From Myxococcota bacterium (GTDB lineage: Bacteria; Myxococcota_C; UBA6777), in the NCBI GenBank assembly GCA_023150835.1, contig JAKLKB010000161.1:1-19191 (forward strand): 19,191 bases of DNA, in the 5' to 3' direction. Each line of letters starts with the position of its first letter. Positions within the stretch are counted from its first letter, which is position 1. The position numbers were made by a program, and so were the translations under genes. Under the pieces are notes generated by a model that searched no databases, was not told the origin of the DNA, and saw nothing but the letters and a program-made list of their open reading frames with translations. Shown piece by piece: positions 3,746 to 14,726 of the stretch.

Positions 3746-5443
3746 TCAGGCAGGAAGAAGCCAATCAAGCAGCTTAAAGACGATCGCCAACAGCAGCAAA
3801 CCGTGCAAGCCGACAAACAGCGCATACGCCAAACGAGGCGAGCGATCAATAAAGTGAAGCACCGAAAAAACAGTACGTTTCATCAGCGTGGTCGGGCATT
3901 GGATGGGGAAATAACCGCTATGGATTTTTGCAAGAGCGTCCAACATCTCTTTGGCCGACTGAAAGCGTTCCTCGGGGTGCTTGCGCATCCCCTTTGAGAG
4001 GAAATGCGCCACTTCGATCGGGGTGTTGGGCTGTGCTGGATGGCGCAGGACAAACACCGAACGCGGTTCTTCTTTGGCGACGGCAAAAAGGATCTCAAAG
4101 AGGCTTTCTTTGTTGCCGAGATAGTGTTGAAGGGAAAGGAATTCGTAGAAGACCACGCACAAGCTGTACAGATCGCTGCGTGTATCGATGCGATCGTTGA
4201 GTCCAAGCGCTTGCTCGGGGGACATATACATCGGCGTGCCGATCAATCGGTTGTTTTGGGTTTGGAGATGTAGCTGTTCGGAAAGATGCTTGCGATCTTG
4301 TTCGAGCGCATGGGCAAGTTCATCCATTGAGTCAGATGTCGCCGATGTCGCCGATGTCGCCGATGTCTGCGATGTCTGCGATGTCTGCGATGCCTGCGAT
4401 GCCTGCGATGCCTGCGATGCCTGCGATGTCTGCGATGTCTGCGATGTCTGCGATGTCTGCGATGCCTGCGATGTCTGCGATACCTGCGCTGCTTGTGATG
4501 TTAAGGATGCTGTGTTCGATGGGGCGGACGAGTTGATGCGTTTGGCGATGCCCCAGTCCATGACAAGGACTTCAAAGTGGGGGCCGATCATGATGTTGGC
4601 GGGTTTGAGGTCACGGTGCAAGATGCCCTGAGCATGGGCAAAATCGATGGCTTTGAGGATATCGATCAAGATCTGGAGGCGTTGCGTGAGCGGAAAACGG
4701 GCATGATAGGCGGGATCGCCCGAACGGAGTTTGTCGATGATATCTTCGAGGGTTTCGCCTTGGACGTACTTCATCACAAAGTAGTAGCATCCGTCTTTAT
4801 CGAGGCCGACATCGTGGATTGGGACGATATTTGGATGTTCCAATTGTCCGACGATACGGACTTCTTCGGCAAAGCGAACGACGGGTGCGGTGGTGTGGAG
4901 TTCGGACTTTAGGCGCTTGATCGCGACCATGCGTTGGATGTCTTTGTCGAAGGCGAGGTCGACTTCTCCCATCGCGCCGCTGCCAAGCGAACGCTTGCTT
5001 TGGTAGCGTTCTTGTCCGTCGATCACCAGTTGAGGCGCTGCTGAATCAGACGACTTTTGTAAGCGCGGAAGGATGGTGGTTCGGAGTCCTTGTAGTCGGA
5101 TCTGCTGTAGTTCTACCGAAGATGTACGGATGCCAAGACTGTAAATTCCCGAGGGTGCGGGAGATCGCGTTGCCAAGGAAAGATCGCCTTCGCTGTCGAA
5201 AGGGGAGTGAGATTGGCTCGTTGCCCTTGCATCGTCTGCGAAGGTTCTCTCAGCCTCGGCAGACAGGGCATTTGCAGCCTCGGCAGACAGGGCGTTTGCG
5301 GAGTCGCAAGCAAGGACATTTGCAGAGTCGGCAAAGAGGTAGGCAAAGGGATCAAGGGCGGGGTTGTCGTCAAGGGAAGTCGCAAAACCGAGGGCAGGAG
5401 ACCCCAAAGATGCGGTCTGTTGGGCGGATTCTTGTTTGGTCAT
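3746..5443 (-). CDS. Ser/Thr protein kinase with expanded activation loop
   Basis: A 565-residue Hanks-type kinase. Residues 1-145 form a low-complexity Ala/Ser-rich N-terminus. Kinase motifs follow: glycine loop GSGAMGEV (154-161), VAIK lysine 176, HRDLKPAN (276-283), DWG (296-298) in place of DFG, and GTPMYMSPE (402-410). The DWG to SPE segment is about 110 residues, against roughly 20-30 in most kinases. It holds a run of Ser-Gln-Thr/Ala triplets (about 316-370) and then a predicted helix (371-400). A hydrophobic helix at about 538-562 ends the protein, so it is tail-anchored with no extracytoplasmic domain. The ATG at 5443 is preceded by GGGAG. Catalytic residues are intact, and DWG is common in active bacterial kinases. 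A role of the loop in regulation is inference. Confidence 0.93.
   Translation of the reverse strand: MTKQESAQQTASLGSPALGFATSLDDNPALDPFAYLFADSANVLACDSANALSAEAANALSAEAERTFADDARATSQSHSPFDSEGDLSLATRSPAPSGIYSLGIRTSSVELQQIRLQGLRTTILPRLQKSSDSAAPQLVIDGQERYQSKRSLGSGAMGEVDLAFDKDIQRMVAIKRLKSELHTTAPVVRFAEEVRIVGQLEHPNIVPIHDVGLDKDGCYYFVMKYVQGETLEDIIDKLRSGDPAYHARFPLTQRLQILIDILKAIDFAHAQGILHRDLKPANIMIGPHFEVLVMDWGIAKRINSSAPSNTASLTSQAAQVSQTSQASQTSQTSQTSQTSQASQASQASQASQTSQTSQTSATSATSATSDSMDELAHALEQDRKHLSEQLHLQTQNNRLIGTPMYMSPEQALGLNDRIDTRSDLYSLCVVFYEFLSLQHYLGNKESLFEILFAVAKEEPRSVFVLRHPAQPNTPIEVAHFLSKGMRKHPEERFQSAKEMLDALAKIHSGYFPIQCPTTLMKRTVFSVLHFIDRSPRLAYALFVGLHGLLLLAIVFKLLDWLLPA
4335..4487. repeat. 9-bp minisatellite in the kinase activation loop
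   Basis: Seventeen 9-bp units of the GATGTCTGC type run from 4335 to 4487, with a decayed eighteenth unit after them. Variants are grouped: three GATGTCGCC, three GATGTCTGC, four GATGCCTGC, four GATGTCTGC, then mixed. The grouping suggests expansion by slippage or unequal exchange. On the coding (minus) strand the units read Ser-Gln-Thr, Ser-Gln-Ala or Ser-Ala-Thr. Confidence 0.95.
5251..5346. repeat. 24-bp tandem repeat in kinase N-terminus
   Basis: Two almost identical 24-bp units (5251-5274, 5275-5298) are followed by two diverged ones up to 5346. On the minus strand they encode an 8-residue Ala/Ser-rich repeat in the disordered N-terminal part of the kinase. Confidence 0.75.
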
Positions 5444-7278: not shown

Positions 7279-8124
7279 ATGCCGATGTCGCTCGTCTTGT
7301 GGCTTTCCGAACAGATATCACTTCTCAAACAACTCCCCCGCACAGGTTGGTTGCATCGCGGTGTGCCACAACCTGAATCCGTTGCATCCCACAGTTACGG
7401 CGTGATCTTTTGGACATGGTGGTTGGTGTATCGCGCTCAACAACGCGGGGTATCGCCTTTGCCTGACCTCCAAACAGCCCTATTGCTCGCCCTGTTGCAC
7501 GATCTCCCCGAAGCTGGAACGGGTGACTTGGTGCCTCGCCAACGCCGCCTGCTTTTTGGTGATGACAAAAACACCCGAAACAACGCCATCCGCACCGCCG
7601 AAGCCCGCTTTTGGCAAGAAGCGCCCTCCCCTCCAAATTCTCCACCCATCCCCACCCACCCACTCTCCCTTTCCGAACAAGATGCCCACTCAGCCGCTTC
7701 GGAATCTTCACGCTCTCCCATCTCCGAGCAAGATGCCCACTCGACCGCTTCGGAATCTTCACGCTCTCCCATCTCCGAGCAAGATGCCCACTCGACCGCT
7801 TCGGAATCTTCACGCTCTCCCATCTCCGAGCAAGATGCCTACTCGACCGCTTCGGAATCTTCACGCTCTCCCACCCTCGAACGCGATCTCGCTCAATTCA
7901 TCGACAACGCCCACCAACGCTGGCAAACACTTCAAAACACCGAAACACCCGAGTCTCGCATCGTCAAACAAGCCGACAAATTGGATTGCTTGCTCCAAGC
8001 CTTGTTCTACTACCAAAAAGGCTACCCCCAAGCCCAAGACTTCGCCCGTTTGATCGATGACGCCGCTGGAGACGACGACGAACTCCGCACACAACTCCAC
8101 CAAGCTTGGCATCACTCCCTCTAG
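7279..8124 (+). CDS. HD-domain phosphohydrolase, HDDC2/YfbR-like, with repeat insertion
   Basis: A 281-residue protein. The opening LKQLPRTGWLHRGVPQPESV then SHSYG matches the HDDC2/YfbR family of nucleoside 5'-monophosphate phosphohydrolases. Likely metal and catalytic residues are H38, H74-D75 (LLHDLPEAGTGDL), E78 and D233 (KQADKLDCLLQA). The family hydrolyses deoxynucleotides; substrate choice here is not shown. Residues 113-200 are a Ser/Pro-rich insertion with four 17-residue repeats, between the HD motif and the last conserved Asp, where relatives have only a short connection. The start at ATG 7279 is preferred because AAGGG lies eight bases upstream and the family homology begins there. 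A longer frame from 7174 has no such support. A 9-bp minisatellite begins eight bases after the stop. Confidence 0.88.
   Translation: MPMSLVLWLSEQISLLKQLPRTGWLHRGVPQPESVASHSYGVIFWTWWLVYRAQQRGVSPLPDLQTALLLALLHDLPEAGTGDLVPRQRRLLFGDDKNTRNNAIRTAEARFWQEAPSPPNSPPIPTHPLSLSEQDAHSAASESSRSPISEQDAHSTASESSRSPISEQDAHSTASESSRSPISEQDAYSTASESSRSPTLERDLAQFIDNAHQRWQTLQNTETPESRIVKQADKLDCLLQALFYYQKGYPQAQDFARLIDDAAGDDDELRTQLHQAWHHSL
7675..7878. repeat. 51-bp tandem repeat, four copies, inside the HD gene
   Basis: Units start at 7675, 7726, 7777 and 7828. Copies 2 and 3 are identical; copies 1 and 4 differ by a few bases. Each encodes 17 residues (EQDAHSTASESSRSPIS). The high identity points to recent duplication. 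Confidence 0.95.
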
Positions 8125-8131
8125 CCCCGCC

Positions 8132-8446
8132 TCTTCCGTCTCTTCCGTCTCTTCCGTCTCTTCCGTCTCTTCCGTCTCTTCCGTCTCTTCCGTCTCTTCT
8201 GTCTCTTCTGTCTCTTCCGTCTCTTCTGTCTCTTCTGTCTCTTCCGTCTCTTCCGTCTCTTCCGCCTCTTCCGCCTCTTCCGCCTCTTCCGTCTCTTCCG
8301 CCTCTTCCGTCTCTTCCGTCTCTTCCGTCTCTTCCGTCTCTTCCGCCTCTTTCGTCTCTTTCGTCTCTTCCGTCTCTTCCGTCTCTTCCGTCTCTTCCGT
8401 CTCTTCCGTCTCTTCCGTCTCTTCCGCCTCTTTCGTCTCTTTCGTC
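8132..8446. repeat. 9-bp minisatellite, 35 units
   Basis: Thirty-five consecutive units of exactly 9 bp, type TCTTCCGTC, with variants TCTTCTGTC, TCTTCCGCC and TCTTTCGTC. The plus strand is almost pure pyrimidine with one G per unit. There are no insertions or deletions within the array. It starts eight bases after the stop codon of the HD gene. Confidence 0.97.
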
Positions 8447-8601
8447 TCTTCTTTCCGTGTTTTCCGTGTTTTCCGTGGACTCTTCTTGTGGATCAAAGAC
8501 GCTTTGGGATATCCTGCGAGGTGTATGCGTCCAACCTACCGTTTTCTCCCCAACAAGCCCGCATACGCTGTTGTCCCCAAACCTGCGCTTGGTACGGCGC
8601 G

Positions 8602-8608
8602 AAGGAGG
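8602..8608 (+). promoter_or_regulatory. Ribosome binding site deciding a TTG start
   Basis: AAGGAGG, a full anti-16S match, ends five bases before TTG at 8614. The peptide from this TTG is a clean signal sequence, whereas the longer frame from 8488 puts 42 unlikely residues before it. Confidence 0.8.
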
Positions 8609-8613
8609 TTCTT

Positions 8614-9414
8614 TTGAGTCGCCTTACAACTGTTTCCTTGGTGTTTGCTACGTTTCTTTTGGCTCCTTCTGCGTGGGGATGGGATTATCGCCCGGATCCA
8701 CGCGATCCACAAAATTGCATGATGCGTTGCCGTCAAGCCTGCCAAACCCACTACACCCGCCAATGTCAAACACGCACCGTTTGGCGTACCGAGTGCCGTG
8801 ACTACGTCAATTGGCAGACCCAATGCCGCGATTACACCCGTTGGCAGACCCAATGCCGTGATTACACCACGTGGCAAACACAATGCCGCAACTACCGCAC
8901 TCTCCAAACGCGATGCGCCCAATATCCCGCCGTCCGCCAACGCTGCCTTCGGATCGGTTGGCACACCGCCTTTTGCCGCAACTATCACCATATGCGTACA
9001 CAATGCCGCGAGTACGTCACCCTTCAACGTCGCTGCACACAAGTCCCGCAACAAAGCCGCCGCTGCGCCAGCGTACCCCAACGCTATCAACATTGCACTC
9101 GCGTCCCCCAACGCCACCGCCGCTGCGCCAACGTACCCCAACAACAACAGATCTGCTTTAACGTCCCCAAAACCTACTGCAACAACCAGTGCCAAACCCG
9201 TTGCCAACAACCCGCTCCCCCTCCCGTCTCTCCCGCCCCCGCCATCCACCCACGATGCGCCAAATTCTACCACCGTTGGCAAAGATACCGCCACCGCTAC
9301 GTCGACTCGGGACACCCCAAACATCGCCGCAAAGCCAAGAAAAACAAACGTCGCTACTTCCGCTGCCTTGAATGGGTGCGCAACAACCCCAACGACGAAG
9401 GCGACGATTTTTAA
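8614..9414 (+). CDS. Secreted protein with cysteine every tenth residue
   Basis: A 266-residue protein, not recognised as a known family. Residues 1-22 are a signal peptide (LTTVSLVFATFLLAPSAWG). From residue 51 to 181 a cysteine stands at exactly every tenth position: 51, 61, 71 and so on to 181, fourteen in all. Two unit types are seen. Type I (about 51-100) is C-R-D/N-Y-x-x-W/L-Q-T-Q/R. Type II (141-190) is C-x-x-V-P-Q-Q/R-x-x-R/H. More cysteines flank the array (35, 39, 43, 189, 193, 197). The C-terminus has a Pro-rich link, a very basic stretch and an acidic end. Export suggests disulfides and a regular solenoid or rod. It may share a transcript with the Gln/Arg-rich exported protein 134 bp downstream. 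Function is unknown. Confidence 0.85.
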   Translation: MSRLTTVSLVFATFLLAPSAWGWDYRPDPRDPQNCMMRCRQACQTHYTRQCQTRTVWRTECRDYVNWQTQCRDYTRWQTQCRDYTTWQTQCRNYRTLQTRCAQYPAVRQRCLRIGWHTAFCRNYHHMRTQCREYVTLQRRCTQVPQQSRRCASVPQRYQHCTRVPQRHRRCANVPQQQQICFNVPKTYCNNQCQTRCQQPAPPPVSPAPAIHPRCAKFYHRWQRYRHRYVDSGHPKHRRKAKKNKRRYFRCLEWVRNNPNDEGDDF

Positions 9415-9548: not shown

Positions 9549-10538
9549 ATGCACAAGATATCTTCGGTTGCCCTCTTTGTCGGACTTACAGCACTTTGCG
9601 TATCCGATGCCTACGCACAACAGTTCAACCCACCCCGCCCTTCGACGAACATCAACGTGCGCCGTGTCGCCCAACAAGCCCAAAACTACCGTTCCGAAGC
9701 AAACCGCCTTGATTCGACCTGCAACAGCACCCAACGCATCGCCAATCGATACCAACAAGACGCCCGTCGCTTCGCCTTATCCGCACAACGAACGCCCAAA
9801 GTCCGCGCCCACTACAAACGCCTCGAAGTCCAAAGCTACCAACTCGCTCAACGCTATCAACGCTTGCTCACCGTCTGCCGCCAACAACAAGTCCGACTCC
9901 GCCAAGCCGCCTCACAGATCACCCAAAGACCCAATCTCGTCCCCCAAAAAGAACGAGAGATCGGCAACACTCGCCGCCACTTCGACGAACAACTGCGCCA
10001 AGCCTTCCAACAACGCAACCAGTTCACCCAGATCTCCCGCTCGACGCTCGATCAAATCCAACGCGAAACCACGCGTGGTTTCCATATCCCCGGCTCTCCC
10101 ATCCCCTCATCTCGCCAACCTGCACCCCGCCCCGGTACTCCCCCTAGCCACACAGGTTTCGGCAAGCCTTCCTCCCCAAACACCGGCATCCGCGCCGTCA
10201 AGATCGAAAGCTTCTCGATCTCTCGCCTTGATATCAACGCACCTTCCTCTTATCAAAGCCGACTCAGTGGTCAGATCCGCAGCCAAGAAAGCGTGCTGCG
10301 CCGCTGTTATCAAAACGAATTAAGCGCCCTAAAATCCGCGACATCGGGTCAGTTTGCCTTTTCCTTCCAACTCCGACCCGACGGACGCACCACCTCCAAC
10401 CGTATCGTGCGTTGGCCCTCCGAAAGCTTCCGCGCTGCTGTCTGTATGCGCAATATCCTCAACAACACCACCTTCCCACTCCCCCCCAATAGCGCCGTCG
10501 TGGTCGGCATGGAGATCTTCGTCCGTACATCCAACTAA
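9549..10538 (+). CDS. Exported protein with AgmX/PglI-like C-terminal domain
   Basis: A 329-residue protein. The signal peptide is residues 1-23 (VALFVGLTALCVSDAYA before QQ). Residues 35-175 are Gln/Arg-rich and helical, probably coiled coil. Residues 178-212 form a Pro/Ser linker. The C-terminal domain, about 235-327, matches the AgmX/PglI C-terminal pattern: SVLRRCYQNEL with C253, FSFQLRPDGR, a second cysteine C299 (AAVCMRNI), TTFPLPPNSA and a final strand. The domain occurs in myxobacterial envelope and motility proteins, often behind TonB-like or membrane segments, which are absent here. The ATG at 9549 has AAAGGAG eight bases upstream. It follows the cysteine-decad gene by 134 bp on the same strand and shares its Gln/Arg/Tyr-rich composition, so the two may work together. 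Periplasmic or surface location is predicted. Confidence 0.8.
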   Translation: MHKISSVALFVGLTALCVSDAYAQQFNPPRPSTNINVRRVAQQAQNYRSEANRLDSTCNSTQRIANRYQQDARRFALSAQRTPKVRAHYKRLEVQSYQLAQRYQRLLTVCRQQQVRLRQAASQITQRPNLVPQKEREIGNTRRHFDEQLRQAFQQRNQFTQISRSTLDQIQRETTRGFHIPGSPIPSSRQPAPRPGTPPSHTGFGKPSSPNTGIRAVKIESFSISRLDINAPSSYQSRLSGQIRSQESVLRRCYQNELSALKSATSGQFAFSFQLRPDGRTTSNRIVRWPSESFRAAVCMRNILNNTTFPLPPNSAVVVGMEIFVRTSN

Positions 10539-14350: not shown

Positions 14351-14665
14351 CGCATCCACAACATCCGTAATCGAGCGATTTCGGGCCAACCTCCCCTACA
14401 GGTGGTGGCATTTCGCATCCACAACATCCGTAATCGAGCGATTTCGGGCCAACCTCCCCTACAAGTGGTAGCATTTCGCATCCACGACATCCGCAATCGA
14501 GCGATTTCGGGCCAACCTCCCCTACAGGTGGTAGCATTTCGCATCCACGACATCCGCAATCGAGCGATTTCGGGCCAACCTCCCCTACAGGTGGTGGCAT
14601 TTCGCATCCACGACATCCGCAATCGAGCGATTTCGGGCCAACCTCCCCTACAGGTGGTGGCATTT
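14351..14665. repeat. 63-bp tandem repeat, five copies
   Basis: Units begin with CGCATCC at 14351, 14414, 14477, 14540 and 14603, and a sixth begins at 14666 but diverges after six bases. Copies differ by only a few substitutions (ACAACATCCGTAA in two, ACGACATCCGCAA in three). Each contains TCGAGCGATTTCGGGCCAAC and CTCCCCTACAGGTGG. Confidence 0.97.
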
Positions 14666-14726
14666 CGCATACGTGGTGTGTGGGAGTGAGCCGATTTCGG
14701 GCCTGTGGTCTTCACACGGCGATGCG

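Follow-up and report, generated by a model that had tools for sequence, protein, structure and literature searches.

Mirror-symmetric cysteine spacing suggests a long disulfide-closed hairpin in a family of exported bacterial proteins

The cysteine-ladder gene and its surroundings

The window, by which we mean the whole stretch of 19,191 nucleotides that was analysed, contains a gene that starts with TTG and whose translation yields a protein of 266 amino acids (encoded by 8614-9411), here called the cysteine-ladder protein. Its parts, and the features that surround it, are listed in Table 1. A purine-rich site is also found upstream of the start of the full-length homologue genes.

Table 1. 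Features of the window, with positions in nucleotides and residue numbers of the window protein.
Feature	Position	Strand	Remarks
In-frame 9-base tandem repeat in a serine/threonine kinase gene	4335-4501
In-frame tandem repeat in the HD-domain protein	7663-7873		51-base unit, 4.2 copies
Array of the 9-base unit CCGTCTCTT, then TTTCCGTGT repeats	8127-8477		36 copies of the 9-base unit (94% matches)
Antisense open reading frame	8536-9324
Ribosome-binding site aaggagg	8602-8608	+	5 bases 5' of the TTG start; read directly
Cysteine-ladder gene	8614-9414	+	266 aa; dN/dS ~0.10 versus the G001 orthologue
Putative export signal peptide, ~residues 1-22, MSRLTTVSLVFATFLLAPSAWG	8614-8679	+	SAWA in the orthologue; sequence reading
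N-terminal cap C35-x3-C39-x3-C43-x7-C51	8716-8766	+	spacing 4,4,8; kept in most members
N arm, six decads C51 to C111, mostly C-x-x-Y-T-x-W	8764-8946	+
Central turn unit CLRIGWHTAFC (C111-C121)	8944-8976	+	W116 is the mirror centre; AlphaFold2 inter-helix break at 115-118
C arm, six decads C121 to C181	8974-9156	+	C-x-x-V-P in the outer decads
C-terminal cap C181-x7-C189-x3-C193-x3-C197	9154-9204	+	spacing 8,4,4; mirror image of the N cap
Pro/Ala-rich linker, residues 198-214	9205-9255	+	sequence reading
Strongly basic C-x35-C module (C215-C251)	9256-9366	+	spacing 36 in four members
Acidic C-terminal tail, ends GDDF	9367-9411	+
Downstream gene for an exported protein	9549-10538		weak TonB_C-like C-terminus (E 0.1, below cut-off)
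63-base repeat	14351-14670		five copies, 97% matches, open in several frames

The protein is 95% identical to its orthologue from the same genus (L006, genome G001), with a dN of 0.025 and a dS of 0.26, and the lone cysteine codon that differs between the two genes is altered synonymously. The antisense open reading frame is less conserved (79%, versus 95% for the cysteine-ladder frame). By sequence comparison the reading frame is under selection, and a spurious open reading frame is ruled out by the dN/dS of ~0.10 together with the ribosome-binding site and the export signal.

The initial annotation had described the protein as secreted. This agrees with the putative export signal that can be read at its N-terminus, and an export-signal-like N-terminus can be read in every full-length member of the family. 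Cysteine accounts for 22 of the 266 residues, and the mature protein is strongly basic, with 48 Lys and Arg residues versus 13 Asp and Glu residues. The linker is longer by 5 residues in the orthologue, and the basic C-x35-C module is also C-terminal in L006, L016 and L020. The tails, attached to otherwise basic proteins, are acidic and end in DDF in the window protein or in EEF in L008 and L009, and the C-terminus of L016 is a run of Asp. Possibly the DDF/EEF tails are a sorting signal. Short repeats are frequent across the window, and the 36-copy array separates the HD-domain gene from the cysteine-ladder gene.

Cysteine spacing in the protein and its relatives

The cysteines of the protein are found at positions 35, 39, 43, 51, 61, 71, 81, 91, 101, 111, 121, 131, 141, 151, 161, 171, 181, 189, 193, 197, 215 and 251. 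Fourteen of them, from residue 51 to residue 181 (codons at 8764-9156), had been reported to lie ten apart with no slip. The translation shows that this is exact, and shuffling the mature protein 100,000 times produced runs of at most 6 ten-spaced cysteines. The description is incomplete, however, since the run belongs to a larger array of 20 cysteines that extends by 8, 4 and 4 residues to either side. These 20 cysteines (35-197) are spaced 4,4,8,10x13,8,4,4, which is a perfect palindrome. Its centre, (35+197)/2 = 116, is the Trp of the sole Gly-Trp unit, C111-LRIGWHTAF-C121, and both ends of the array bear the same cap in mirror image. When the spacings of one such array are shuffled, a palindrome arises in ~0.06% of the trials. 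A fresh DNA repeat is ruled out as the origin of this regularity, because the mean identity between decads is 43% in bases and, excluding the cysteines, 20% in residues; apart from units 61, 71 and 81 and some of the Val-Pro units, none looks recently duplicated. The two unit types that had been said to share one register indeed do so, and they turn out to be the two facing arms, of which the N arm is of the aromatic type and the C arm of the Val-Pro type.

Protein searches followed by profile searches detected members of the family in all five examined genomes of the phylum, and a single genome can have as many as three divergent copies. Three members are found in G000, the genome that contains the window (the window protein itself and one each on C220 and C17), two in G001 (C225 and C113), one in G002 (C481), three in G003 (one on C36 and two on C159) and two in G004, which also has a fragment truncated at the end of a contig (C81, C62 and C75). 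In contrast to this presence in the phylum, profile searches of more than 1,200 genomes outside of it (381 genomes across other families plus 291, 195 and 398 genomes of three other phyla, with a slight overlap) revealed no relative, and neither did a scan of viral contigs. The view that the pattern corresponds to no named family is upheld, as no Pfam, NCBIfam or PHROGs profile scored above its curated cut-off. Pfam searches retrieved no family for the window protein at E-values up to 5 and nothing relevant for 11 members, and no PDB chain was similar by sequence at E-values up to 10 in phmmer and profile searches. Literature searches for cysteines at every tenth residue, palindromic cysteine spacing and disulfide-ladder repeats found no description of any of them.

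A few candidate relatives were rejected. The weak match in G051 is an unrelated CRGEPLWSPR repeat, and the match L005 (C57) is an unrelated tandem-repeat frame. When 84,980 genomes were searched for four successive copies of C-x3-P-x5, those examined among the matches listed proved to be either low-complexity DNA or Cys-rich repeats unrelated to the family, and they are no guide to its distribution. The cap pattern, applied to the five genomes, recovered the known members amid tandem-repeat noise, with a backward control that was about equally frequent.

A chain that forms a hairpin should have a central turn unit and two arms that change together, whereas a solenoid predicts neither. In every array that has GW between decads, the GW unit is exactly central. 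It is flanked on either side by six decads in the window protein, L006, L007, L008 and L012, by seven in L009, by four in L016, and by nine in the second arrays of L007, L008, L009 and L012, the larger relatives having two arrays in tandem. L020 has nine decads on either side of an exactly central YG. Compared to its nearest relatives, L009 has one extra unit in each arm (alignment A1). Departures from the ten-residue step are mirrored as well: the spacing in L016 is 4,8,13,10x4/GW/10x4,16,8,4, and the first array of L020 is a minimal 4,4,8,[11],8,4,4. The divergent proteins L004/L014 (4,4,8,10,11,10,6,4/13/6,6,11,10,10,9,4,4) are still near-symmetric, with a p-value of <1e-4 in shuffles. L003, which has 19 cysteines, is symmetric in its inner rungs only; its outer C arm has no cap, and its asymmetry of 27 is no better than that of shuffles. 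The central units contain turn formers, namely GW, YG, NDKG, NNE and FG. Structural selection on the spacing, as proposed in the initial annotation, is borne out by homologues that keep it at 31-45% identity. Free drift of the spacing, which had been named as an argument against such selection, is not seen in them; drift is rare and mostly affects both arms, the outer end of L003 being the clearest exception.

The residues between the cysteines are in register with the same mirror. Among 80 full rungs, all 51 N-arm units that have an aromatic residue at offset 6 face a C-arm Pro at offset 4, as compared to 8 of the other 29. N6-C4 and N4-C6 are the two strongest associations of all offset pairs, and both add up to the antiparallel sum of 10. 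The phi coefficient is 0.79 at the true register, 0.55 and 0.63 when the centre is shifted by half a unit either way, and 0.19 or 0.38 when it is shifted by a whole unit; the values for the half-unit shift remain fairly high owing to the clustering of units of the same type. In eight of the ten GW arrays the N arm has as many aromatic-type units in a row as the C arm has Pro-type units (2/2, 4/4 twice, 5/5 and 7/7 four times), and in the remaining two the numbers are off by one. Array 2 of L020 retains the spacing and the centre and no longer follows the aromatic-Pro rule. The association statistics are based on 11 arrays from few lineages and, since rungs share descent, they overstate independence; the mirrored length changes are the more independent evidence.

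Probable hairpin topology and its secondary structure

Taken together, these sequence patterns suggest that the exported protein probably folds back on itself as a single, long antiparallel hairpin whose arms are joined by nested disulfides, and not as a solenoid; in the hairpin topology alone we have slightly greater confidence. The chain would run out along the N arm, turn at Gly115-Trp116 and come back as the C arm. Each N-arm cysteine, predicted to be oxidised, would be bonded to its mirror partner, resulting in ten nested disulfides (35-197, 39-193, 43-189, 51-181, 61-171, 71-161, 81-151, 91-141, 101-131 and 111-121). An eleventh disulfide, 215-251, would lie in the basic C-terminal module. 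Between the rungs the aromatic residues of the N arm, which are mostly Trp, would face the prolines of the C arm, and the larger relatives would consist of two tandem hairpins.

It had been suggested that the array might instead be a disulfide-stapled solenoid, in which neighbouring decads are joined. Beta-helical antifreeze proteins and pentapeptide repeats combine a short strict period with one-directional stacking and have no mirror centre. The cysteine array shares the short strict period with such solenoids, and its divergent units and the caps at both ends would also suit one, but it differs by its mirror centre and its coupled arms. Because each unit of a solenoid stacks on the next one, there is no need for a central GW or for coupled halves. 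Thus, the central GW, the equal arms of varying length, the mirrored deviations and the mirror-register pairing are all left unexplained by a solenoid, which we consider highly improbable. An antiparallel homodimer of head-to-tail chains, in which Cys i bonds Cys 232-i of the other chain around a two-fold axis at residue 116, would likewise produce this palindrome and this residue correspondence. Such a dimer, however, needs no turn formers at its centre, yet all the central units have them (GW, YG, NDKG and NNE), and for the tandem double arrays it would need an awkward double pairing. We regard it as very unlikely.

Two kinds of secondary structure could build the preferred single-chain hairpin. 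AlphaFold2, run without an alignment, models the array as a helical hairpin with a pLDDT of 61, which falls below 50 in the outer C arm. Residues 81-151 alone are modelled, also without an alignment, as two helical arms that turn at GW, with a pLDDT of 86. In both models the chain breaks at 115-118, and a beta ribbon is absent from these alignment-free models. They would fit a sub-case of the hairpin, in which the same nested topology is built by a long pair of alpha helices, resembling a twin-CX9C hairpin that has been over-extended to ten rungs. The central C-x9-C-x9-C-x9-C segment (C101-C111-C121-C131) has the twin-CX9C spacing, is modelled by AlphaFold2 without an alignment as a helical hairpin and, if its cysteines pair as predicted, would match the nested pattern of Coa6, whose disulfides are C58-C90 and C68-C79 (PMC6743065). 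Twin-CX9C or CHCH proteins of the mitochondrial intermembrane space, such as Coa6 and Cox17, are similar to the window protein in that they have cysteines ten apart and, as is predicted here, antiparallel arms, nested disulfides that join outer to outer and inner to inner cysteines, and oxidation after transport. They differ from it in having four cysteines and two rungs versus 20 cysteines and ten rungs; moreover, the window protein is bacterial, and one of its arms has a Val-Pro in each outer decad.

Other properties argue against the helix pair. On an alpha helix, a step of ten residues is computed to rotate the cysteine by about 80 degrees per rung (-80; -51 in a left-handed coiled coil), and six or more rungs would therefore leave the interface. 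The arm spacings (4, 6, 8, 10 and 16) have two as their sole common factor, 231 of the 235 being even numbers; even spacing would keep the cysteines on one face of a beta strand. In the outer C-arm decads Val-Pro recurs every ten residues, in the very region in which the full-array pLDDT is below 50. Furthermore, the secondary-structure propensities lean slightly to strand, and there was no CHCH match in Pfam. The hydrophobic moments are compatible with alpha and beta alike. On these sequence properties a beta ribbon appears slightly ahead of the helix pair, to which we nevertheless assign an appreciable, if minor, chance.

Foldseek and VIA-align searches with the AlphaFold2 models retrieved generic helical hairpins only. 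The top matches among them were coiled-coil hairpins, and these were weak (Foldseek E >1, Z <8). Like the window protein, the arm of seryl-tRNA synthetase and the coiled-coil hairpins of Rad50/SMC proteins consist of two arms of equal length with a turn in the middle, but they pack by heptads and have no disulfides such as those predicted for the cysteine ladder. These matches mean a common arrangement only.

Predicted disulfide formation and possible function

All five examined genomes of the phylum have a VKOR gene. In G000, the VKOR open frame (L179:1845-3659, minus strand) continues into two thioredoxin-like segments with the motifs CPFC and CPSC, which by eye appear DsbA-like. In addition, a DsbD-type transmembrane domain together with a thioredoxin is encoded at L176:7033-8457 (Pfam) and at L177:2333-3304 (97% identical). 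In both genomes of the window's genus these DsbD-type genes are convergent with a divergent cysteine-ladder paralogue. The VKOR, DsbA-like and DsbD-type genes make the predicted disulfide formation plausible, and the VKOR proteins would be what drives it. The same VKOR and DsbA-like segments, together with the export signal, speak against a metal-binding rod, the other structure that had been suggested, in which reduced cysteines would bind metal ions. Although the high cysteine content (22/266) would suit such a rod, the cysteines are gained and lost as mirror-coupled pairs and there are no CxxC clusters, and we judge it extremely improbable.

The neighbours of the cysteine-ladder genes vary from genus to genus. 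Two genomes that belong to the same genus have, as the next gene, one for a protein with SpoIID, MopE and Ig-like domains, which is a hint that points to the cell wall. In the window the downstream gene is the one with the weak TonB_C-like C-terminus, which is kept at the orthologous place in G001. Our tentative proposal is that the product may be a structural rod of the envelope or the extracellular matrix, highly cationic, resistant to stretch and proteases, and able to bind anionic polymers.

The main alternative to such a structural rod is a killing or membrane-active role, in which the product would be a secreted cationic protein comparable to a giant disulfide-closed hairpin antimicrobial peptide. 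It is rich in Arg, Trp and Tyr, has the 48 Lys and Arg versus 13 Asp and Glu mentioned above and is predicted to be closed by disulfides, and a cationic, Arg- and aromatic-rich, disulfide-closed hairpin is characteristic of protegrin-type peptides (PMC13001179). Beta-hairpin antimicrobial peptides and theta-defensins, with their cystine ladder, are likewise Arg- and aromatic-rich antiparallel hairpins with cross-strand disulfides, an arrangement that is predicted for the window protein too. However, antimicrobial beta-hairpins have ~16-25 residues and one to four disulfides, whereas the hairpin in the window would have ~160 residues and ten disulfides; with 266 amino acids and arms of ~80 residues, the protein is not a short peptide. 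That one genome may contain as many as three divergent copies also argues against a killing role, and no immunity gene or dedicated export gene was recognised nearby. We consider this role rather unlikely.

Nested disulfide hairpins are known from small proteins and peptides. No description of a ten-rung hairpin with matched insertions in its two arms was found in the databases and papers searched. Whether the family represents an undescribed architecture, in which the repeats of two arms are paired by one disulfide per ten residues, units are gained and lost in pairs and the distribution is confined to one small phylum, we put at about an even chance.

The usual view of repeat proteins is that they grow as units are added to a single stack. 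In this family the two arms that face each other appear to co-evolve unit by unit, which makes topology and disulfide pairing readable from the sequence. If this reading is right, the protein is a modular, length-adjustable and covalently stapled rod, and 11 to ~20 disulfides per chain would be exported and oxidised in a phylum that is represented by a handful of genomes. Should the arms form a beta ribbon, the rod would be a disulfide-stapled, two-stranded ribbon of ~25-30 nm in length.
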